NCBI RefSeq assembly: GCF_001571385.1 | Contig: NZ_BCNW01000001.1 | Coordinates: 1,178,001-1,242,000 of the forward strand | Reading direction: 5' to 3' | Length of the DNA: 64,000 nucleotides | Source: Methanofollis ethanolicus | Lineage (GTDB): Archaea > Halobacteriota > Methanomicrobia > Methanomicrobiales > Methanofollaceae | Part shown: positions 18,571-30,108 of the stretch, piece by piece | Position numbering within the stretch: position 1 is the stretch's first letter | How the letters are laid out: each line of letters begins with the position of its first letter | Program-made: the position numbers and the translations under genes | The notes under the pieces: generated by a model | Database searches by the model: none | What the model was told of the DNA's origin: nothing | Seen by the model: the letters and a program-made list of their open reading frames with translations, nothing else

Positions 18571-21500
18571 GTGGCGGCAAATGGGAAATACATAACCATT
18601 ATAAGTGCTGATGGCTACCTCGTCCATACGGGACGTGGGAGCGGATATACTGTGGAGAGTTCGAACATTGACCGTCTGGAGTCAGGTATCTCCCACCTGC
18701 TCCTGACAATGGACCGATCGGGGGACGGCATCCTCATCAGCGGTCAGGAGAGGACGATCATCTACGCCAACGAGACCTTCGGCCGTATTTTTGGGCTCTC
18801 TCCCGGCGAAATCGTCGGGAGAGACGTCATGGAGGTCATGGAATCCGAACTTTCTCCCCTTTTTGAGGAACCGGAGTCCTTCAGGGTCAGGATCGAGGCG
18901 GTTTACCGGAAGTCCCGCGAGTGCAGGGGGCCGGAGTGGCCCTTGCGCGGTGTCGGGTCACGGTGGATTACCTACTCCAGTCACGTCATCTCCGGGAACG
19001 CACTGCAGGGCTTGAGACTCGACATCTTCCGCGAGATCACCGGGATCAAACAGGCCGAGGAGACACTCCTCCGGAACGAGAAGAGGCTGAAAAACCTGAC
19101 CACAGCCTGCGGCATATGTACCTGCACAACCGGGCCAGACCTTGCGGTCGTCACGGCCGACGAGACGTTCTGTGAGATGACAGGCACCAGAAAGGAGGCT
19201 GTCCGCGGGAAGAACATACGGGAACTCCTGCCCGGCACGGCGGCATCCGAAGTGGACGCACGCCTCGGCGAACTCTCCGCGGCGCAACCGACGGCCGTGG
19301 TCCCCTCGCCGGGCGGGGCATGGAGGCTCTGCGGCACCTTCTTCCCGGACGGCTCGCTCTCAGAGGTCCAGTGGGCATGGTGCAGGGAGAGGGAGATGCC
19401 CGGCGCAGCAGACGGCGCAGGTATGGACGCGTGGCCATCCTGCCTCTCCGCCCTTGCCGCCCTCGCCGCCCTCTGTATCGACGGAACGCGGGATGCCGGA
19501 GACGTCCTTGCAGGGGCCGCGCGCCTGGTGCTGGAGGCGGCCCCCTGGTCTTCCTGGATCGGGATAGAGGCCCCGGGCATACCCCTTGCCGAGGCAGGGC
19601 GCCGAAAAAAGAAAGATATAGAGACGATCATTCCCATCCCTCCGGACAGTGCCGGGGGGAAACTCCGCATCAGGCACGCGGCAGAAGAAGAGGTGCCCTC
19701 AGGTGGGGACGCCTTCCTCCACGCCGTCAGCGGAGTGATCGGGGTGTACCTCGGGGAGCAGACGGCGCTGGAGGCGGCGCGGCGGTCGGAGGTCACCTAC
19801 CAGACACTCCTTGAGACCACCGGGACCGCTACCTTCCTTCTCGACAACGAGGGGACTATCGTCAGGATGAACGCCGAGTTCGAGCGCCTCTTCGGGTATA
19901 ATGCCAACGATCTCAGGAACGGCTTCATGTGGACCTCCTGCGTCGACGAGGAAGACCGCCAGATGGTCAGACACTTCCACGAACTCAGGCGCGCCGGGGC
20001 CGGGGACATACCGAAGTCCTATGAATGCAGGGCATATGCAAAGGACGGCACCCCGAGAGATATGATCGTCAATGTCTCCCTCATCCCGGAGACCACATAC
20101 TCCATCATCTCTCTCATCGACATCACCGAGCAGAACGAGACCGAGGTCGAACTCAGGGAGAGCGAGCACCGCTATCGGCTGATCGCCGAGAACGCTACCG
20201 ACGTCATATTCACCCTTGACCCTGACCTCAGGTTCACCTATGTGAGCCCGTCGACCGAACGTCTCCTTGGTTGGCCTGCCGCAGGGCTGGTTGACCGCCC
20301 GGTGACCGACTGCTTCGCCGCGGGCGACGGCGACGTCTTCTCCGGGGCCGCATGCGAGATCCTGACGGTCGCAGACGACGGGGAACCCCTCGCGCGCGTC
20401 ATGGAACTGGAGGCGCACCGTCCCAATGGCAGTCGGGTCTGGGTGGAAGTGCGGATCAATCCCCTGCGTGCAGGTGACGGGTCGCCTGTCGGGGTCATGG
20501 GCGTCATTCACGATATCAGTGAACGTAAACACGCCGAAGAAAGGGAGATCCAGTACGTCAGAGAACTTTCATTCCTTTCCAGTGCGGCCATGGGATTCGT
20601 CGAATTGCCGCCCGAAGAGGAGATCTACCGCTATATCGCGGACCGCCTCTGCAGTCTCCTCGAAGGGTCACTCGCCATAGTCTCCCGGTACGACGACCTG
20701 GACACGACACTCACCGTGCGAGCGGTTTCCGGTATCGACGAGGACCACTCTCCCCGCCTCTACTCCCTGGCACGCAGTTGCAGGGGCATGACCGTCTCTG
20801 TCCCGGCCGACCTCATCGAAGACCTCGGCAGGGGCGTGGTCCTGCCGCTGGAAGGAAGAGGGAAGTCCAGCCTCCTCGCCGGACCGGTCGGTACGATTGT
20901 CGATACCTTCGCAAAAGGCACCGGCAGGAAAGAATATGTCATGGGGATTGCACGGGGCGACGAACTCTTCGGTTGCGTGGTCGTCGTTCTCAGGGATGAG
21001 GTCTGCCTGGAATCGGTCTCGACGATCGAGACCTTCGCCCACCTCTCCTCGGTGGCGCTCCAGCGGCGGCGTCTCGAGGTCGAACTCGAATCGACAAAAT
21101 CGCGTCTCCAGCACATCCTCTCCTCAAGCCCGGTGGCGATCTTCTCGGCGGAACCCTCGACCACAGGACGCGGGATGGGCCCGATCACCTTTGTGACCGA
21201 GAACATCACCGGCCTCATCGGTTTCGAGCCGCAGGAGATCCTCTTCGACTCCACATTCTGGTCCACCTACATCCACCCTGCTGACCGTCCGCGCGTCCAG
21301 GGCGAGGAATATAGTGCACTCCTCGAGGAGGGCAGGCGGACCTTCGAGTACAGGATCAGGCACAAGGACGGGAAGTACCGCTGGGTCCACTCTGAAGTAC
21401 GGGTAATCCGAAACGAAGAAGGGAAGGCAGTCGAACTCATCGGGTCGGCGATCGACATATCGGAGAGGAAGAGAATCGAAGAGGCCCTCAGGGTCATGGA

Positions 21501-23853
21501 CAGCGCTGTCACCTCCTCGATCAACCCGATCATCATCACCGATCTCGAGGGCGACCTCGTCTTTGCAAATCACTCAGCCCTGAAACAATGGGGCTATGAG
21601 GATATCCAGAAAGTGGTGGGAAAGCCGCTTGACCGGTTCTGGGTGCAAAAAAAGCAGATCGCCGAGATCCTCGACCGCATCGACAGGGACGGCGGATGGA
21701 TGGGCGAACTGGTCGGGAAGAAGAAGGGAGGAAAACGCTTCCATGCCAGCGTATCGGCAAACATGGTGACAGACGAGGAGAACGAACCTCTCTGCATCAT
21801 GCTCTCCTTCGCCGACATCACCGAGCGGATCGAGATCGAGGAGGAACTTGCGAAGTACCGGACGCACCTTGAGGAACTCGTCCTCGAAAGGACCGAGAAA
21901 CTGACCCGGGCAAACGAACTCCTCGGAATGGAGATATCGGAACGCAAACGCGCGGAAGAGCATGTACGGGCGCTCAGTTCGTTCAGGGAGAGTGTCATCG
22001 AGAACGCCATGATGCTCCTCACCGTCATCGACGAGGAAGGGGACGTGAGTGTCTGGAACAAGGCGGCGACCGAGATCACAGGGTTCGACCGGGACGAGAT
22101 GGTCGGAAAGCGCATCGATAGGGTCTGGGAGACACTCATCCCGGACACCGTCTCCAGAGACACTCTCACGCACGACATCCGTGAGAGGATCGCCTCCTGT
22201 GGACGGATCGAGAACATGGAACTCCTGATCCGGGCGAAAAATGGTGAGGCGAAAGTCCTTCTCTGGAATGCCCGGCCGCTCGCGGACAGCAGGAAGAGGG
22301 GGCTTGTCGTCCTCGCCGAGGACATCACGGCGCGCAAACAGATGGAGGAGGAGATCCGGGCGAGCGAGGCGCGCTACCGCGGCGTGGTCGAGGACCAGAC
22401 CGAATGGATCTGCCGGTTCGGGTCCGACCTGCACCTCTCCTTCGTGAACGAGGCGTGCTGCCGCTCCTTCGGCCGCAGCAGGGACGAGATACTCGGGTCT
22501 TCTGTCGCCGCACTCCTCCCCGAAGGCTGCGAAGATCTCTTTACTTCCCTTGCCGGGCGTTTTGCGGGTGGCCGGCAGAGCGTTACCCTTGAAGGCGCCG
22601 CCCGGCACCCTGACGGGGATGTGCGGTGGCACCAGTGGACGCTGCGGGCCATCTTCACCCCTGACGGTGACGTCTCGGAGTATCAGGCCGTCGGCCGCGA
22701 CATCACCGAGGTGAAAAAAGCCGAGGAGGAGTTTGTCAGGACAGAGAAACTCCTCTCCCTCTCCGAACTTGCCGGCGGGATCGCGCACGACTTCAACAAT
22801 ATTCTCACCTTGATCATGGGCAATCTCAACCTCGCAAGGATGAAACTCTCACCCGACGATTTCGTCTATCACCGCCTGACCGAGGCCGAGGCGGCGACGA
22901 TGCGGGCGGGCGAGATCACGCGGCAACTCTTCAGTTTCTCCGACAGGACAGAACCCCGGAAAGACACGCTGGATGTCGCCGACATCATCCGTGAAGCGGC
23001 AAATTACGCTCTCCGCGGCTCGAAGAGCACCTGCAGGCTCGACCTCGGGCCCGGGCCGATGCCGGTGGACGCCGACCCTGCCCAGATCCTCCAGGTGATC
23101 CAGGCACTGATCATCAATGCCGACCAGGCGATGCCCGGCGGCGGTGAAGTGACTATCGGGACACAGGTCGTGGAGGTGTCCGGGAACGACCCCGTCCCTC
23201 TTCCGATAGGTTCGTACGTGCGGATCACGGTGAAAGACGAGGGCGTCGGCATCCAGAAGGAGCATCTGGGGCGGATCTTCGACCCCTATTTCACGACCAA
23301 AAAGCATGGTTCAGGCCTCGGCCTTGCGGTCGCCCTGCCCATCATCAAGAATCACGGCGGCTGGATGGACGTGGCGTCCGAAACCGGCGCCGGGACAATC
23401 TTCTCCCTTTATCTGCCATCATCTGCACATAGTGTACATGCAGAGATGAAGCCCGAAGTCATAACGTCGGGCAGGATCGGGTCGATCCTGCTGATGGACG
23501 ACGAAGCAGGTATTCTTGAAACCACCAGCGACATTCTCCGGCATCTCGGCTACACGGTGACCACGGCACAGGACGGCGAAGAAGCGGTGACGCGCTTTGA
23601 GGAGGCGCTCAGAGAGGGGAAGCCCTTCGACGGTGTCATCCTCGACCTGACCGTGCCCGGCAGGATGGGCGGTGAGGAGACCTTCACCCGCCTCCGCGAA
23701 CTCGACCCGGCGGTGAAGGTGGTGGTATCGAGCGGCTACCTGAACGACCCGGTTGTCAGGAACCCGAAGACGTTCGGGCTCTTCGGGAGTATCGGGAAGC
23801 CATATCGAATCGACGAACTCTCCCGCATGCTGCAGGAACTCCTCAACGCCTGA
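18571..23853 (+). CDS. Giant soluble multi-PAS/GAF hybrid histidine kinase with C-terminal receiver
   Basis: A 1760-residue cytoplasmic sensor kinase with no transmembrane segment. Approximate order: PAS 40-160, PAS 176-275, degenerate GAF-like 285-400, PAS 408-530, PAS 531-655, GAF 656-845, PAS 846-970, PAS 971-1090, coiled coil 1090-1135, PAS 1136-1250, PAS 1255-1385, histidine kinase 1390-1620, receiver 1640-1758. The phospho-acceptor is His1406 in AGGIAHDFNNIL; the ATPase has GSGLGLAVALPIIKNHGG. The receiver Asp is residue 1692 in VILDLTVPG. The start is a GTG preceded by a weak ribosome-binding site, so the N-terminus could be shorter. There is no DNA-binding output, so it must signal through a partner. 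The TPR gene begins 75 bp downstream. Confidence 0.92.
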   Translation: MAANGKYITIISADGYLVHTGRGSGYTVESSNIDRLESGISHLLLTMDRSGDGILISGQERTIIYANETFGRIFGLSPGEIVGRDVMEVMESELSPLFEEPESFRVRIEAVYRKSRECRGPEWPLRGVGSRWITYSSHVISGNALQGLRLDIFREITGIKQAEETLLRNEKRLKNLTTACGICTCTTGPDLAVVTADETFCEMTGTRKEAVRGKNIRELLPGTAASEVDARLGELSAAQPTAVVPSPGGAWRLCGTFFPDGSLSEVQWAWCREREMPGAADGAGMDAWPSCLSALAALAALCIDGTRDAGDVLAGAARLVLEAAPWSSWIGIEAPGIPLAEAGRRKKKDIETIIPIPPDSAGGKLRIRHAAEEEVPSGGDAFLHAVSGVIGVYLGEQTALEAARRSEVTYQTLLETTGTATFLLDNEGTIVRMNAEFERLFGYNANDLRNGFMWTSCVDEEDRQMVRHFHELRRAGAGDIPKSYECRAYAKDGTPRDMIVNVSLIPETTYSIISLIDITEQNETEVELRESEHRYRLIAENATDVIFTLDPDLRFTYVSPSTERLLGWPAAGLVDRPVTDCFAAGDGDVFSGAACEILTVADDGEPLARVMELEAHRPNGSRVWVEVRINPLRAGDGSPVGVMGVIHDISERKHAEEREIQYVRELSFLSSAAMGFVELPPEEEIYRYIADRLCSLLEGSLAIVSRYDDLDTTLTVRAVSGIDEDHSPRLYSLARSCRGMTVSVPADLIEDLGRGVVLPLEGRGKSSLLAGPVGTIVDTFAKGTGRKEYVMGIARGDELFGCVVVVLRDEVCLESVSTIETFAHLSSVALQRRRLEVELESTKSRLQHILSSSPVAIFSAEPSTTGRGMGPITFVTENITGLIGFEPQEILFDSTFWSTYIHPADRPRVQGEEYSALLEEGRRTFEYRIRHKDGKYRWVHSEVRVIRNEEGKAVELIGSAIDISERKRIEEALRVMDSAVTSSINPIIITDLEGDLVFANHSALKQWGYEDIQKVVGKPLDRFWVQKKQIAEILDRIDRDGGWMGELVGKKKGGKRFHASVSANMVTDEENEPLCIMLSFADITERIEIEEELAKYRTHLEELVLERTEKLTRANELLGMEISERKRAEEHVRALSSFRESVIENAMMLLTVIDEEGDVSVWNKAATEITGFDRDEMVGKRIDRVWETLIPDTVSRDTLTHDIRERIASCGRIENMELLIRAKNGEAKVLLWNARPLADSRKRGLVVLAEDITARKQMEEEIRASEARYRGVVEDQTEWICRFGSDLHLSFVNEACCRSFGRSRDEILGSSVAALLPEGCEDLFTSLAGRFAGGRQSVTLEGAARHPDGDVRWHQWTLRAIFTPDGDVSEYQAVGRDITEVKKAEEEFVRTEKLLSLSELAGGIAHDFNNILTLIMGNLNLARMKLSPDDFVYHRLTEAEAATMRAGEITRQLFSFSDRTEPRKDTLDVADIIREAANYALRGSKSTCRLDLGPGPMPVDADPAQILQVIQALIINADQAMPGGGEVTIGTQVVEVSGNDPVPLPIGSYVRITVKDEGVGIQKEHLGRIFDPYFTTKKHGSGLGLAVALPIIKNHGGWMDVASETGAGTIFSLYLPSSAHSVHAEMKPEVITSGRIGSILLMDDEAGILETTSDILRHLGYTVTTAQDGEEAVTRFEEALREGKPFDGVILDLTVPGRMGGEETFTRLRELDPAVKVVVSSGYLNDPVVRNPKTFGLFGSIGKPYRIDELSRMLQELLNA

Positions 23854-23928
23854 GTGCCTGACGCCGGGAGAGGTAAACTTTTTTCACTACCCTTATTGGG
23901 GCGTGCGGTGAAGTACTCGCAATCACGC

Positions 23929-25761
23929 ATGACCGATCAACCACCAACCGATGCCGGGAAGGAAGCCTTCGCCCTCTATGAGGCAGGGAAGTACAGGGAG
24001 TCGATCGACCTGTGCACGCGCCTTCTGAAAGGCTCGGACGACACCTCCCTCGCGATACTCGTCGCCACAAACCTCTTTGCCCTCGCGGAATACAACGAGG
24101 CCGAGGCACACCTCAGGGACCTCCTCAGGAAGATGCCCGAGTCCTCGTACCTTCACAGTTTTCTCGGCCGGGTGCTCTCGGCGCGGGGGGACGGGCGGGC
24201 GGTCGCCGCCTATGCCCGGGCGGTCCAACTCGACCCGGCAAATGAAGAGGCTCTCAGGGCCTACGCGGCATATTTCTCCGGGAAACGCGACCAGATGTCG
24301 GCTATTCCGATCCTCTCCGCGCTCGCACGGGTCTCGGGAAAGAAGGATGATGCCCGCTCCCTCATCCGCGCCCTCATCGAGTGCGGCAGGGGGGAGGAGG
24401 CTCTCTCAGCCTACCAGGATCTCCTCGGCGGGACCGGGGCAGATGCCGAGTATATCGACGCCCTGATGGTCGCCGGTCGTCACCGGGACGCCGCGGCGGC
24501 ATCGGTCGAGACCTTCAGGAGGACAGGAGACCCGGCGTTCCTGCGGCAGTACCTCGCCGCCCTCTCTGCCTTCGACCGGCCTCAGGCCCTGAAGATCTTT
24601 CCCCGGTACCTCGGGGACATATCCGACAACGACCTTCTCTTCGACTATGTCCTCCTCCTCACGTCGGAGGGGAGGTGCCGCGAGGCCCTGGAGGCCTGTG
24701 AACGCCTCCTCGCCCGGAGCCCTCACCCGATCCACCAGCTCGTCGCCTGCGAACTCATCGCGGCGACAGGGCAGACCGAGCTTGCGAGGGAGTGCTACGA
24801 GGCATTGATCCGGGACGGGGTCGCCGGGATGGACGATCCCGAGACCCTGGAGATGTCCGTCGCCGCCTATGAACAGTTTCTCAGGAAGGCGTATTCTCCG
24901 GAGACCGTGCCGGCGTGCTACCTGGAAACCGTCTCCCGGGACCCGAACGTCGTCAGCCTTACGAGGACGGGCCTGTTCTATGCCTCATTCGGTGACATGG
25001 ACACGGCGCGGGACTGGCTGTACCGGGCGTACAGGCTTGACTTTCTCAACGGCGGGATCGAGTATGCACGGTTTCTGGCGCGGCAGGGCGAGACACGGGA
25101 GTGCGAGAAGATCCTCATTCATATTCTCACAAACACGCAGCGGACCGCCGACCTCGTGAAGGTGGCCGAGGCCGTCATCGGCGGTGACGAAGAGAGCGGG
25201 GCGGGGAGGCGGCGGCTCCTCGACGCGCTCGTCAGGAGGTTCTCGACCGAGACCGGCCACCTCGGCCCTGAGGGGACCGAGGTCTTTGCGCGGGTCTGCC
25301 TCCGTGCGGCCGGGGTGGCGCTGGCCGGGGGCGATTATGTGCGCTGCAAGGAGTACTGCCTCCACGGGCTGGACCTCTCCCGCACCTGCACGGACGCCTT
25401 CTTCGATGTCATATGGCGGTGTAAGGAGGCGACGGTCGCCGAGCTTCCGGTCTTTCCCTTTGAAGGCAGAGGCGGTGGGGTGGCTGCAGGTGCCAGTGCC
25501 GGCACAGCAGGAACCGACCTGAGCAAAAACGATGTCGAAGAGCCCGACCTGGGTCTTGACGAACGCGAAACAGCGCTGGTCGCCTTTTTACGCCAGCACC
25601 GCGAGACCAATGAGGAAGAACTCCGCAAGGTGCTCGGCACCCGCCGGGTGAGCGGTGTGGTCAATCGCCTGATCAAAAAAGCGAACGACGCCGGCGTCCC
25701 CCTGATCGAGAAACAGGGCATGGGCGAGCACGGCGAGATATATGTCTACTGCGGGAAGTGA
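23929..25761 (+). CDS. TPR-repeat protein with C-terminal winged helix
   Basis: A 610-residue protein of helical repeats. N-terminal TPRs are clear (AFALYEAGKYRESIDLCTRL; ALAEYNEAEAHLRDLL; VAAYARAVQLDPANEEALRA), and helical pairs continue to about residue 530. A linker rich in Gly and Ala leads to a C-terminal winged-helix-like domain (about 545-610, DERETALVAFLRQHRETNEE and LGTRRVSGVVNRLIKKA). I chose ATG 23929; GTG 23908 is an alternative. The stop lies 4 bases before the start of the BrxD-like ATPase gene, so these are an operon. It is likely a scaffold or DNA-binding partner of that ATPase. No named family is recognised. Confidence 0.85.
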   Translation: MTDQPPTDAGKEAFALYEAGKYRESIDLCTRLLKGSDDTSLAILVATNLFALAEYNEAEAHLRDLLRKMPESSYLHSFLGRVLSARGDGRAVAAYARAVQLDPANEEALRAYAAYFSGKRDQMSAIPILSALARVSGKKDDARSLIRALIECGRGEEALSAYQDLLGGTGADAEYIDALMVAGRHRDAAAASVETFRRTGDPAFLRQYLAALSAFDRPQALKIFPRYLGDISDNDLLFDYVLLLTSEGRCREALEACERLLARSPHPIHQLVACELIAATGQTELARECYEALIRDGVAGMDDPETLEMSVAAYEQFLRKAYSPETVPACYLETVSRDPNVVSLTRTGLFYASFGDMDTARDWLYRAYRLDFLNGGIEYARFLARQGETRECEKILIHILTNTQRTADLVKVAEAVIGGDEESGAGRRRLLDALVRRFSTETGHLGPEGTEVFARVCLRAAGVALAGGDYVRCKEYCLHGLDLSRTCTDAFFDVIWRCKEATVAELPVFPFEGRGGGVAAGASAGTAGTDLSKNDVEEPDLGLDERETALVAFLRQHRETNEEELRKVLGTRRVSGVVNRLIKKANDAGVPLIEKQGMGEHGEIYVYCGK

Positions 25762-25765
25762 GTTG

Positions 25766-27043
25766 ATGGACGGGAGAAAGACAGAGAGTATCGGGATCAT
25801 CAATGCGCTCAGGCGCGGGACTGTGCCTGCATCGGGGCTGGAACGTCTTGCCGTCGGCCTGTCGGTGGAAGAAGAGGTGATCGGCAGACAACTCGACTTC
25901 GCCGCATCGGGAGGGGCCGACATCAAATTCGTCTGCGGGGATTACGGGAGCGGGAAAACTTTCCTGGTGGCGCGGGCACTGGAGATCGCACGGGAAAAGA
26001 GGTTTGTCACCGCGCATGTGATGATCTCGGCAGACACCCCTCTCCACAAAGAGAGCGCGCTGTACTACCGGATCCTCTCGTCTCTCAGGACTGCGGAGCA
26101 CGAGAACGCGCTCAAAGAGATCGTGGACGACTGGATCTTCGCGATCGAGGAGAGGATCATCGAGGTTGACGGGGTCTCCGAGGAGGACGAGGCCCTGAAG
26201 ACCGGGACGGTGGAGAGGATCGAGGCGGCCCTTGCCGACATCTCGGCGGTGAACCCGGCCCTTGCGGCGGCGCTCCGCGTCTACTACACGGCAAACTGTG
26301 CCGGAGACTTCCCCCTTGCGCAGGCGGCGCTCGGTTGGCTCTCGGGCGAACCCCATGTCGGGAGGAGGTTCAGGCAGGCGGCCGGCGTGAAGGGTGAGGT
26401 GGACGAGGTCTCGGCGCTCGTATTTCTGCGGGGCTTTATGCGGATCATCAGGGCGGCCGGGTATGCCGGACTTGCAGTGGCGGTGGACGAGGTCGAGACG
26501 GTGCAGGCCCTGCCCTCGAACCTCCGGGCGAAGGGCTACGGCAACCTCCGCCAGATCGTCGACGCCGTCGACCGGGGGGAGATGCCGCACTGCTACTTCC
26601 TCTTCACCGGCACGCCGGCCTTCTTCGAGGGGTCGAAGGGGATACGCTCTCTGCCGCCCCTGTACGACCGCCTGAAGATCGTGGGCGCGGACGATTATGC
26701 CAACCCCCTCCAGGCGCAGATCCGCCTCCGTCCCTTCGACCTCCAGAAGCTGGAGGAAGCGGCCCTGAAGGTTTGCGAGGTCTATGCCGACGCCGCCGCA
26801 CCGGTGGACCGGAACCGCGTCTCCCACCGCTTTATGCAGGGGATGATCGACCGTGTCACGACGGGGTTCGGCGGGAGGGTGGACGTCATCCCCCGCATCT
26901 TCCTCCGCGAGTTCGTGGATGTGCTGGACAAGTGCGGGCTGTACGCGGAGTACGACCCTGCGGCCGCCTATGCCTTCGATAAGGAGAAAGTGAAGGGTGA
27001 CCTGAAGGAGGAGGAAGAGGCGGTGCTTGAGGTGGAGTTCTAA
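25766..27043 (+). CDS. BrxD-like (DUF2791) P-loop ATPase
   Basis: A 425-residue AAA-type ATPase closely resembling BrxD, the small ATPase of type 2 BREX defence systems. Walker A is CGDYGSGKTF with Lys64; Walker B is GLAVAVDEVETV with Asp241; a sensor-like strand follows in YFLFTGTPAFFEG; a candidate arginine finger is in LPPLYDRLK. The mid-region LGWLSGEPHVGRRF matches the family pattern. The start is ATG 25766, with GGGAAGTGAG just upstream. It lies 4 bp after the TPR gene, and its stop shares one base with the next start. There is no pglZ, pglX, brxC, or helicase nearby, so this is not a standard BREX locus. Confidence 0.85.
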   Translation: MDGRKTESIGIINALRRGTVPASGLERLAVGLSVEEEVIGRQLDFAASGGADIKFVCGDYGSGKTFLVARALEIAREKRFVTAHVMISADTPLHKESALYYRILSSLRTAEHENALKEIVDDWIFAIEERIIEVDGVSEEDEALKTGTVERIEAALADISAVNPALAAALRVYYTANCAGDFPLAQAALGWLSGEPHVGRRFRQAAGVKGEVDEVSALVFLRGFMRIIRAAGYAGLAVAVDEVETVQALPSNLRAKGYGNLRQIVDAVDRGEMPHCYFLFTGTPAFFEGSKGIRSLPPLYDRLKIVGADDYANPLQAQIRLRPFDLQKLEEAALKVCEVYADAAAPVDRNRVSHRFMQGMIDRVTTGFGGRVDVIPRIFLREFVDVLDKCGLYAEYDPAAAYAFDKEKVKGDLKEEEEAVLEVEF

Positions 27044-27993
27044 TGGCCAACCGGAAGGAAACCTTTGTCGGGGATATCGCCGATGGGGAGGAGGTCGACG
27101 GGATCTTTCTCATCAGGTCTGCCGAAGTGAAGCAGAAGAGGGACGGGAGTCCCTATATCCTGGCGCAGGTCGCCGACAGGACCGGGTCTCTCGCCTGCAA
27201 CATCTGGGGCGTGCAGGGGTACGGTGAGGCCGTTTCTACGGCGGCAGAAAAACTGAAGGTCGGGGCTGTCTACCGTATCCGGGGCTTTGCAAAGGCCTAC
27301 AACGGCGCGGTGCAGGTCTCGGTGAACGAAGGGATCGCCGACCTCGCAGAGGTGCCGCCCGACGAGGTCTCTGCGGCGGACTTCGTCTGTGCGCCGGTGA
27401 ACGAGGCCGAACTGAAGGGTGGTGTGCTGGCGATGGCCGGCGATATCGCCGATGGCGCACTGCGGGACCTGGTGCTCGAAGCGATCGCCGGCGCGGACGG
27501 GTTCTTCGTGAAACCTGCCGCGAAGTCGCGGCACCACGAGTATCGCGGCGGTCTTGCCGGACACACCCTGGAGACGGCCAGGATCGCGGCGGCGTCCTGC
27601 GATGCTGCCTGCATCTCTCTGGACCGTGACCTCATCGTTGCGGGGTCGCTCCTCCACGATATCGGGAAGGCGTTCTGCTTCGACGAGGCCGGGCTTGCCT
27701 TCACAGCGAGGGCCGAGTACGACCTCGTCGGCCATGTCACCATCGGCGTCTCCTATCTTACCCGGTTCCGTGGCCGCATTCCTGAGGAGCGCTTCTCCCA
27801 CCTGCTTCATATTGTCCAGGCCCACCACGGCCCCCATGGCGAGGTGCCCTGCCACACGCCGGAGGCATGGGCCGTCCACCTGGCGGACCTTACGAGCGCC
27901 ACCCTGCTCGAGGCGGCCGACGACCAGAAGGAGGCCGAACCCGGCACCCGGAAGAACGGATGGCGGAGCGGCGGCCCGGTCTGGCGATTCTGA
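27043..27993 (+). CDS. OB-fold plus HD-domain hydrolase, YhaM-like
   Basis: A 316-residue protein with an N-terminal OB fold (about 1-110; RDGSPYILAQVADRTGSLACNIWG) and a C-terminal HD domain, the architecture of the bacterial 3'-to-5' exoribonuclease YhaM. Metal ligands are visible: the first His in GGLAGHTLETARIA, His205-Asp206 in GSLLHDIGKAF, and later His residues in VQAHHGPHG. The ATG overlaps the ATPase stop by one base (TAATG), so expression is coupled. A nuclease or phosphohydrolase role on nucleic acid is inferred; the last 25 residues (after ADDQKEAEP) look unconserved. Confidence 0.88.
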   Translation: MANRKETFVGDIADGEEVDGIFLIRSAEVKQKRDGSPYILAQVADRTGSLACNIWGVQGYGEAVSTAAEKLKVGAVYRIRGFAKAYNGAVQVSVNEGIADLAEVPPDEVSAADFVCAPVNEAELKGGVLAMAGDIADGALRDLVLEAIAGADGFFVKPAAKSRHHEYRGGLAGHTLETARIAAASCDAACISLDRDLIVAGSLLHDIGKAFCFDEAGLAFTARAEYDLVGHVTIGVSYLTRFRGRIPEERFSHLLHIVQAHHGPHGEVPCHTPEAWAVHLADLTSATLLEAADDQKEAEPGTRKNGWRSGGPVWRF

Positions 27994-28161: not shown

Positions 28162-28419
28162 TCACTCTGCGACCGAAGGAGGGAACACAACGCCCCGCCA
28201 GGGAAGGCGACAGATCTCCGGGTCGGCAACCCTCGTCCTTCTCCCGACGAACGCCACCCGCGACGAAGCCGGGACAGCATGGATCTCGGCCGCGTAGCCG
28301 ATCTCCTCCTGCCAGGCCTGACAGGCCTCTTCATAGGAGGGGGTGATGCAGAGGGTCTTTCGGCTTTCCCTGTCGACAACGATGTAGCGCACCGCTCCCG
28401 GTGTAGGGGGGTTGTTCAT
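28162..28419 (-). CDS. Small hypothetical protein (85 aa)
   Basis: An 85-residue product not recognised as any family. The first half (RYIVVDRESRKTLCITPSYEEACQAWQEE) has the alternation of strand and helix expected of a small alpha/beta domain. The second half is basic and less regular. Upstream on the minus strand only a weak AGGA is found before the ATG. It sits alone between the OB-HD gene and a repeat block. It could be a lineage-specific protein; a spurious frame is possible. Confidence 0.5.
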   Translation of the reverse strand: MNNPPTPGAVRYIVVDRESRKTLCITPSYEEACQAWQEEIGYAAEIHAVPASSRVAFVGRRTRVADPEICRLPWRGVVFPPSVAE

Positions 28420-28851: not shown

Positions 28852-30108
28852 TCAGGCGTCCTTCCGCCTGCGGATCCTGACAGAGTTTGCATGGGCGTGG
28901 AGGCCCTCGGCAGAGGCGAGGTTCTCCACGATACCGCCGAGCCACTCAAGACCCTCCCTGCTGATCATCTGGACGGACGAGGTCTTACAGAAGTGGTGGA
29001 TGTCGAGTCCGGAGTAGACCTTCGCATAGCCCGCAGTCGGCAGGACATGGTTGGTGCCTGAGGCGTAGTCCCCGAAGGCGACGGCGGTGTACGGCCCGAC
29101 AAAGATGGAACCCGCGTTCCGCACCAAGGTGAGGGCCGCCATGGGGTCGGCGACCTGGATGGAGAGGTGCTCGGGTGCGATGTCGTCCATAGCGGCGATC
29201 GCCTCGTCGAGGTCGCGGACGACTACATAACCCGAGTGATCGAGGGCCTTCTCGATGATGGCGCGCCTCTCTGCCGTGGCCATCTGTCTCGTGATCTCTG
29301 CACCGACCTTCGCCGGGAGGGAGGGGTCGGTGGTCACCAGGATGCACCCGGCATGGGGGTCGTGCTCGGCCTGGGCGAGGACGTCAGCCGCGACGAACGC
29401 GGGCTTTGCCGTGGCGTCGGCAAGGATACCGATCTCCGAGGGGCCGGCCGGGAAGTCGATCTCGGCCTCTTCACGCAGCATCATCTTCGCCGCCGTCACA
29501 AAGACATTCCCTGGCCCGACGATCTTCTGGACCGGGTCGATCGTCTCCGTGCCGAGAGCCATCGCCGCGATCGCCTGTGCGCCGCCGACGCGGTAACACT
29601 CGTCCACACCGGCGATATCGAGGGCCACCAGGGTGAGGGGATGGATCGGGGGCGGGGAGCAGACGCAGATCTCTGCCACACCAGCCACCTGCGCCGGAAC
29701 CGTCGTCATCAGGGCGGTCGACGGATACGCGGCCCTGCCGCCCGGCACGTAGGCGCCGATGCGGTCGAGGGGCGTCGTCTTCACCCCGAGGATCACGCCC
29801 GGTTCCACCTCGTCGAGCCAGAGTGAGTGATTGCGCTGCAGTTCGTGGAAACGCCTGATATGCGCCTCGGCCTCGGCAAGACTCTCGACCATGGCGTCGT
29901 CCACCTCCTCGTACGCGCCCTCGAACTCCTCGGGGGCGACGGCAAGGTCCTCAAGGTCGATGTGGTCGAACTTCTTCGTGAGCGCGTAGAGCGCCTCGTC
30001 ACCGTCCTTCCGCACCGCATCGACGATACCGGCGACGGCGTCCTTCGCCCCTGCAAGGTCGGACCGCCGCTGGTTCTTCCATTCCTCTATGTCCAGCGCC
30101 TTCCACAT
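28852..30108 (-). CDS. hisD: Histidinol dehydrogenase
   Basis: Zinc- and NAD-dependent enzyme for the last two oxidations of histidine synthesis (histidinol to histidine). The 418-residue product shows YVPGGRAAYPSTALMTTVPAQVAG, the KIVGPGNVFVTAAK segment, FPAGPSEIGILADATA, AQAEHDPHAGCILVT with zinc-ligand residues, and HVLPTAGYAKVYSGL near the C-terminus. Length is standard. It stands alone on the minus strand, divergent from wtpA with about 130 bp between. Confidence 0.96.
   Translation of the reverse strand: MWKALDIEEWKNQRRSDLAGAKDAVAGIVDAVRKDGDEALYALTKKFDHIDLEDLAVAPEEFEGAYEEVDDAMVESLAEAEAHIRRFHELQRNHSLWLDEVEPGVILGVKTTPLDRIGAYVPGGRAAYPSTALMTTVPAQVAGVAEICVCSPPPIHPLTLVALDIAGVDECYRVGGAQAIAAMALGTETIDPVQKIVGPGNVFVTAAKMMLREEAEIDFPAGPSEIGILADATAKPAFVAADVLAQAEHDPHAGCILVTTDPSLPAKVGAEITRQMATAERRAIIEKALDHSGYVVVRDLDEAIAAMDDIAPEHLSIQVADPMAALTLVRNAGSIFVGPYTAVAFGDYASGTNHVLPTAGYAKVYSGLDIHHFCKTSSVQMISREGLEWLGGIVENLASAEGLHAHANSVRIRRRKDA

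Follow-up and report, generated by a model that had tools for sequence, protein, structure and literature searches.

The TPR–winged-helix protein and the BrxD-family ATPase encoded next to each other in the window (the whole 64,000-nucleotide stretch of DNA that was analyzed) appear to belong to a unit whose third member is an unlinked BrxHI-type helicase, and not the OB–HD protein encoded by the next gene. We consider it about evenly balanced that the three proteins are a scaffolded, domesticated helicase-loading machine that works without PglZ.

The gene row and its BrxD-family ATPase

Three genes lie in a row at 23929-27993 of the window, in a 2.7-Mb host genome (G000) with relatives that are named Methanofollis. 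They encode, in order, a TPR–winged-helix scaffold protein of 610 amino acids (23929..25761, + strand), recognized by its TPR Pfam matches; a BrxD-family AAA+ ATPase of 425 or 433 amino acids (25742..27043, + strand); and a YhaM-like OB–HD protein of 316 amino acids (27043..27993, + strand). The TPR gene begins at ATG 23929 and its stop is at 25761; a GTG at 23854 is a possible upstream start, but homologues begin at the position of the ATG. The ATPase gene could start at ATG 25742, overlapping the TPR gene by 20 bp, or at ATG 25766, leaving a gap of 4 bp, and the latter is better supported, with most homologues beginning there. The ATG of the HD gene overlaps the ATPase stop codon by 1 bp (TAATG). 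With the start at 25766, the packing is the one described in the sequence-only reading of this DNA, a 4-bp gap followed by a 1-bp overlap.

The gene row is far beyond chance because the three genes are under purifying selection (dN/dS of 0.03-0.26) and the TPR gene is directly 5' of the ATPase gene in 30/30 of the loci first fetched. The order of genes at the locus is ArgD-GuaA-PyrG-PaaI-DJ1-GT2-[TPR-BrxD]-HD-hisD, and hisD (28852..30108, – strand; 538 bits to PF00815) is the downstream syntenic anchor in the window. In Methanofollis, the position 5' of the TPR gene that a GT2 glycosyltransferase takes in other families is occupied by a multi-PAS histidine kinase/response regulator of approximately 1,760 amino acids (window 18571-23853). 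An ORF of 85 amino acids with no Pfam match (window 28162-28419, – strand) is conserved in the two closest relatives (87-89% identity), with no counterpart found in the other relatives examined.

The TPR protein was modeled with AlphaFold2 (mean pLDDT of 87.6) as a TPR superhelix of approximately 29 helices (residues 6-501; 23944..25431, + strand), a disordered linker (approximately residues 508-540), and a canonical C-terminal winged helix (residues 545-607; 25561..25749, + strand), the last also indicated by profile comparison. The direct partner of the ATPase is, as had been proposed, a repeat scaffold with a winged helix. The superhelix gave generic TPR fold matches (including NatA Naa15, OGT, Ctr9, and Ski3). 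The match to Ski3 brings to mind Ski2–Ski3, an SF2 helicase with a TPR scaffold, but this is an analogy only, in that specific homology is not shown and TM-scores to the TPR query were approximately 0.2-0.39.

Profile scores place the ATPase firmly in the BrxD family (BrxD/DUF2791), as the sequence-only reading had it. It scored 425 bits against PF10923 (BrxC_BrxD), 414.8 bits against the NCBIfam BrxD model NF033438 (above the curated cut-off of 350), and 418 bits against the PADLOC model for BrxD compared to 152 for SngB. The Walker A motif GDYGSGKT (25937..25960, + strand) and the motif DEVET are each present in 18/18 aligned orthologues, and D249, E250, and E252 of the Walker B region AVDEVE (26480..26497, + strand) are invariant in these. 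The structure model was less confident than that of the TPR protein (mean pLDDT of 75.7) and gave weak Foldseek matches, the best of them to ORC/Cdc6 chains with BrxC (9zdx and 9zll) lower, all at approximately 10% identity and E-values of approximately 3e-3 and above. These weak matches agree with the assignment of BrxD to ORC-Cdc6 in PMC12839542. Unlike BrxC, the ATPase is without BrxC-type extra domains. A sequence search of the PDB with the ATPase found no match, and its profile had a single match in its own genome.

The OB–HD gene as a neighbor

The HD gene dissociates from the TPR-ATPase pair in both directions. We used a class sample of 149 genomes (11 from f1, 20 from f2, 4 from f3, 28 from f4, 64 from f5, and 22 from f6) and called ATPase orthologues at >580 bits. 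Both the ATPase and the HD gene were present in 32 of these genomes, the ATPase alone in 62 (61 of them f5), and the HD gene alone in 41 (f2 and f4). The HD gene was found in f1, f2, f4, and f6 and was absent from every f5 and f3 genome. In f5, the order is GT2-TPR-BrxD-hisD and the HD gene is missing, and several genes intervene between BrxD and HD in some f6 genomes. The order in f2 is GT2-HD-hisD, with the TPR-BrxD pair absent between GT2 and HD, indicating that the adjacency of the HD gene and the ATPase gene is ancestral gene order.

It had been proposed that the TPR–winged-helix protein, the ATPase, and the OB–HD protein are one nucleic-acid surveillance system, previously unrecognized as a unit. 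The tight packing in the window and the same gene order throughout f1 and in g16 of f6 fit such a system, but the two-way dissociation and the ancestral adjacency count against it, and we regard it as very improbable. Of the claim to novelty, what stands is that the BREX survey PMC12839542 does not describe this arrangement as a unit; the three-gene unit itself does not hold, and the HD protein is rejected as a component. The HD protein has OB (PF01336) and HD (PF01966) domains, the architecture of the YhaM 3'-5' exoribonuclease, and matches the YhaM structures 9h3f and 9o7t, although its 92.9 bits against the YhaM equivalog are below the cut-off of 460 and make it YhaM-like only.

An unlinked BrxHI-type helicase with the same distribution

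Bacterial homologues of the ATPase, at approximately 40% identity, are in BREX-like loci and nearly always have BrxHI directly downstream. The closest such locus (L139, from an Anaerolineales MAG) encodes a BrxD sharing 47% identity with the archaeal core ATPase; its genes are a PglZ with a winged helix, BrxD, and BrxHI, then an OLD-family (ATPase-TOPRIM) gene and a UvrD-like gene. Using the BrxHI of this locus as the query, we found a BrxHI-type helicase in the host genome at G000:C1:45969-48080, approximately 1.16 Mb from the ATPase. Its match to the PADLOC model for BrxHI is full-length (528.9 bits), and its helicase motifs are conserved. No helicase adjoins the ATPase at the core loci, where BrxHI is encoded in trans. 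The statement that no BREX gene or helicase accompanies the ATPase is correct for the locus and, for PglZ, for the whole genome (no PF08665 match anywhere), but not for the helicase. A genome search at the DNA level added nothing. In most of the f5 and f6 loci fetched around the unlinked helicase, and in some from f1, a thioredoxin gene lies beside or close to that helicase (L231:7032-7457, L232:7327-7752, L236:7537-7956, and others); the N-terminus of this thioredoxin is unusual and charged (MDDEL...).

The helicase, the ATPase, and the TPR protein are present in exactly the same genomes. The ATPase orthologue was found in 94/149 genomes, comprising 11/11 of f1 (Methanofollis), 22/22 of f6, and 61/64 of f5, with none in f2, f3, or f4, and the TPR profile recovered the identical 94. 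In a set comparison, all three genes were present in 94 genomes and none of the three in 55, with zero mismatches (the contig of G118 ends within its helicase copy). The ATPase had been called an orphan but only looks like one, because a BrxHI-type helicase gene lies elsewhere in the genome throughout this identical set. The helicases found in f2-f4 were an Lhr of approximately 900 amino acids or, rarely, a Shango helicase only. In the phylum sample of 295 genomes, every core helicase (>860 bits) came from a genome with the core ATPase. The next helicase scores (540 bits) were in three f12 genomes that also hold the next-best ATPases, and there the two genes are adjacent. In these genomes (G179, G188, and G195; L182-L184), the linked BrxD–BrxHI pair is preceded by a gene for a 258-amino-acid protein with no Pfam match; this pair may be the closest linked relative of the split dyad, one with a different partner upstream.

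The three genes have also been lost together. The complete f5 genome G097 is without all three, whereas its sister G144 has all three (support of 100/99 in the PyrG tree). Compared to G144, this genome has neither TPR-BrxD at the GT2–hisD junction nor the helicase at the spot flanked by its two conserved neighbors, and the other genes of both regions have counterparts, save a few short ORFs at the margins. A tblastn search of G097 for remnants of TPR, BrxD, and the helicase found none. The draft genomes G135 and G136 are also without all three genes.

Evolutionary distances of the three proteins were correlated beyond those of the species marker PyrG. The partial r was 0.80 for BrxD–BrxHI and 0.83 for TPR–BrxHI, compared to 0.14-0.31 for control pairs. 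Without the two longest branches (eight genomes), the value for BrxD–BrxHI was 0.76 and some control pairs reached 0.63-0.64. We take this as supporting evidence only because 11-13 genomes were used and because of those reduced-set controls.

These observations bear on whether the TPR-BrxD pair acts alone, for example as a regulator of transcription or signaling, with the co-distribution of the helicase being coincidental. A winged helix and an ATPase could regulate transcription, the TPR-BrxD and helicase loci are unlinked, and the co-distribution is mostly shaped by clade, such that independent events are few (at least two changes on the PyrG tree, in which 29 genomes were sampled, plus the drafts G135 and G136). 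However, BrxD homologues at other loci nearly always come with BrxHI or SngC, G097 lost both loci while keeping the other genes there with a clear sister counterpart, and the BrxD–BrxHI distance correlation exceeds the species marker. We consider action of the pair alone to be distinctly unlikely. TPR, BrxD, and BrxHI together appear to be a clade-core, vertically inherited set.

Relation to BREX and Shango and possible function

The winged helix of the TPR protein resembles C-terminal domains of proteins encoded upstream of BrxD in BREX loci. We made a profile from the last 95 residues of the TPR protein and searched 1,352 neighboring ORFs. Apart from TPR homologues there were three matches only, all encoded directly upstream of a BrxD-family gene: the PglZ of L139 (E=1e-11), and SngA of L191 and the BrxB of L179 (each E=0.011). 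With hhalign, the winged helix matched the C-terminus of the L139 PglZ with 97.6% probability and E=3e-12 (ELKKVLGTRRVSG vs ELRKVLGTRRVSG) and that of the L179 BrxB with E=5.6e-5, and L139, L179, and L141 outscored all 250 control C-termini. The likeness is strong to one PglZ and moderate to one BrxB and one further PglZ; for most type-2 PglZ C-termini it is weak or undetectable (aligned profile score of 21.1, near the control maximum of 22.2). Based on these profile comparisons, the winged helix of the TPR protein is homologous to the C-terminal domain of the L139 PglZ and, more weakly, to that of the L179 BrxB. The C-terminal domain of type-2 BREX PglZ is a wHTH (PMC12839542). Homology to the TerB-C region of SngA was unsupported (hhalign score of 9.6, within controls) despite a tempting resemblance by eye and the one hmmsearch match to SngA. 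The BrxB with the similar C-terminal winged helix (L179:5042-5983, in a Fusobacteriaceae MAG) is directly upstream of BrxD-BrxHI, and suggests that this domain moves between partners. The winged helix is shared by the TPR protein, a PglZ, and a BrxB, whose genes all lie immediately 5' of BrxD, and it is predicted to be a docking element for BrxD.

The module shares parts with type-2 BREX (Pgl) and does not belong to it. As in the BrxD–BrxHI dyad of type-2 BREX, the ATPase is above the BrxD equivalog cut-off, the helicase is a full-length BrxHI type, and the gene preceding BrxD encodes a protein with a winged helix at its C-terminus, here the TPR protein and there PglZ. Unlike type-2 BREX, there is no PglZ in the genome, there are no BREX neighbors, the dyad is split across the chromosome, and inheritance is vertical and core. 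The absence of PglZ from the genome rules out BREX membership. No archaeal lineages were reported for type-2 BREX in PMC12839542.

Shango has three matching roles, a multidomain partner (SngA, TerB), a BrxD-like ATPase (SngB), and a BrxHI-like helicase (SngC), but membership in Shango is likewise ruled out. The TPR protein has no TerB match, the ATPase scores far favor BrxD over SngB, and the ATPase and the helicase each form a single clade, apart from both BREX and Shango, in the respective trees. Patchy Shango-type loci with SngA-like, SngB, and SngC genes (L052-L055, L191, L192, and L197; TerB domains confirmed in L191) occur in the same methanogen clade, apart from the core pair. Another architecture of the ATPase family, two BrxD-like ORFs with a short SngC-like helicase, is found in G375 and G287 (L195 and L196).

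We propose that the module corresponds to the BrxD–BrxHI dyad of type-2 BREX, retained without PglZ, and that a PglZ-type winged helix persists on a TPR superhelix, which stands where PglZ has its catalytic domain. BrxD and BrxHI are a tight dyad in which BrxD may load or activate BrxHI (PMC12839542). In the three-protein machine that we envisage, the TPR scaffold would pick the client or site, the C-terminal winged helix would dock or position BrxD (an ORC/Cdc6-type AAA+ protein), either on DNA or on the ATPase itself, and BrxD would spend ATP to load or activate the BrxHI-type SF2 helicase, which would then remodel DNA or nucleoprotein. Because PglZ is absent, the outcome would probably be remodeling (repair, or clearance of replication forks or RNPs) rather than restriction. 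Beyond the gene composition, exact co-distribution, co-loss, synteny, intact catalytic motifs, purifying selection, and winged-helix homology, which the data show, the physical complex, the loading step, the substrate, and a maintenance rather than an immune role are what we infer.

A minimal active immune system is a different reading of the same genes, in which the TPR–wHTH protein would sense foreign nucleic acid and BrxD and the unlinked BrxHI would remove or unwind it, perhaps together with a nuclease encoded elsewhere. The close homologues of the module are all anti-phage parts, and a phylogenetic study grouped the SngC, BrxHI, DruE, and DpdJ helicases in one clade defined by antiphage function (PMC12278908). 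Additionally, the TPR gene and the helicase diverge fairly fast (dN/dS of 0.15-0.30) and the module has been lost in whole families with no obvious replacement. However, TPR-BrxD is in single copy at one fixed syntenic locus (ArgD-GuaA-PyrG...hisD) in 94/97 genomes of three families and has no defense neighbors, whereas a defense island is patchy and mobile and has them, and the real Shango-type loci of the same clade are patchy and located elsewhere. A scan of viral contigs found four distant relatives (25-26% identity) and no close ones. Based on this strictly vertical, fixed-locus, single-copy inheritance, unlike that of a defense island, a defense role is less likely, and we regard an active immune system as possible but doubtful.

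We tentatively favor, with somewhat less than even confidence, the view that an anti-phage BrxD–BrxHI loading module of type-2 BREX was domesticated in Methanomicrobiales. The PglZ effector would have been replaced by a TPR scaffold that keeps a PglZ-type winged helix, the genes would have been split to two loci, and the module would now serve the clade as a core machine that maintains the genome or RNPs, with a winged helix and BrxHI as the constant partners of BrxD. Domestication is favored because inheritance is vertical and single-copy at a fixed metabolic locus and because true Shango-type loci are separate and patchy.

As a natural, stripped-down form, a module of TPR–wHTH, BrxD, and BrxHI that has no PglZ sets the ATPase–helicase step apart, so that the proposed role of BrxD as a loader can be tested directly. 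If the module serves in maintenance, it would clearly exemplify an immune helicase system that has become part of the core cellular machinery, and annotation of BREX or Shango by single-gene matches would be misleading in these methanogens.
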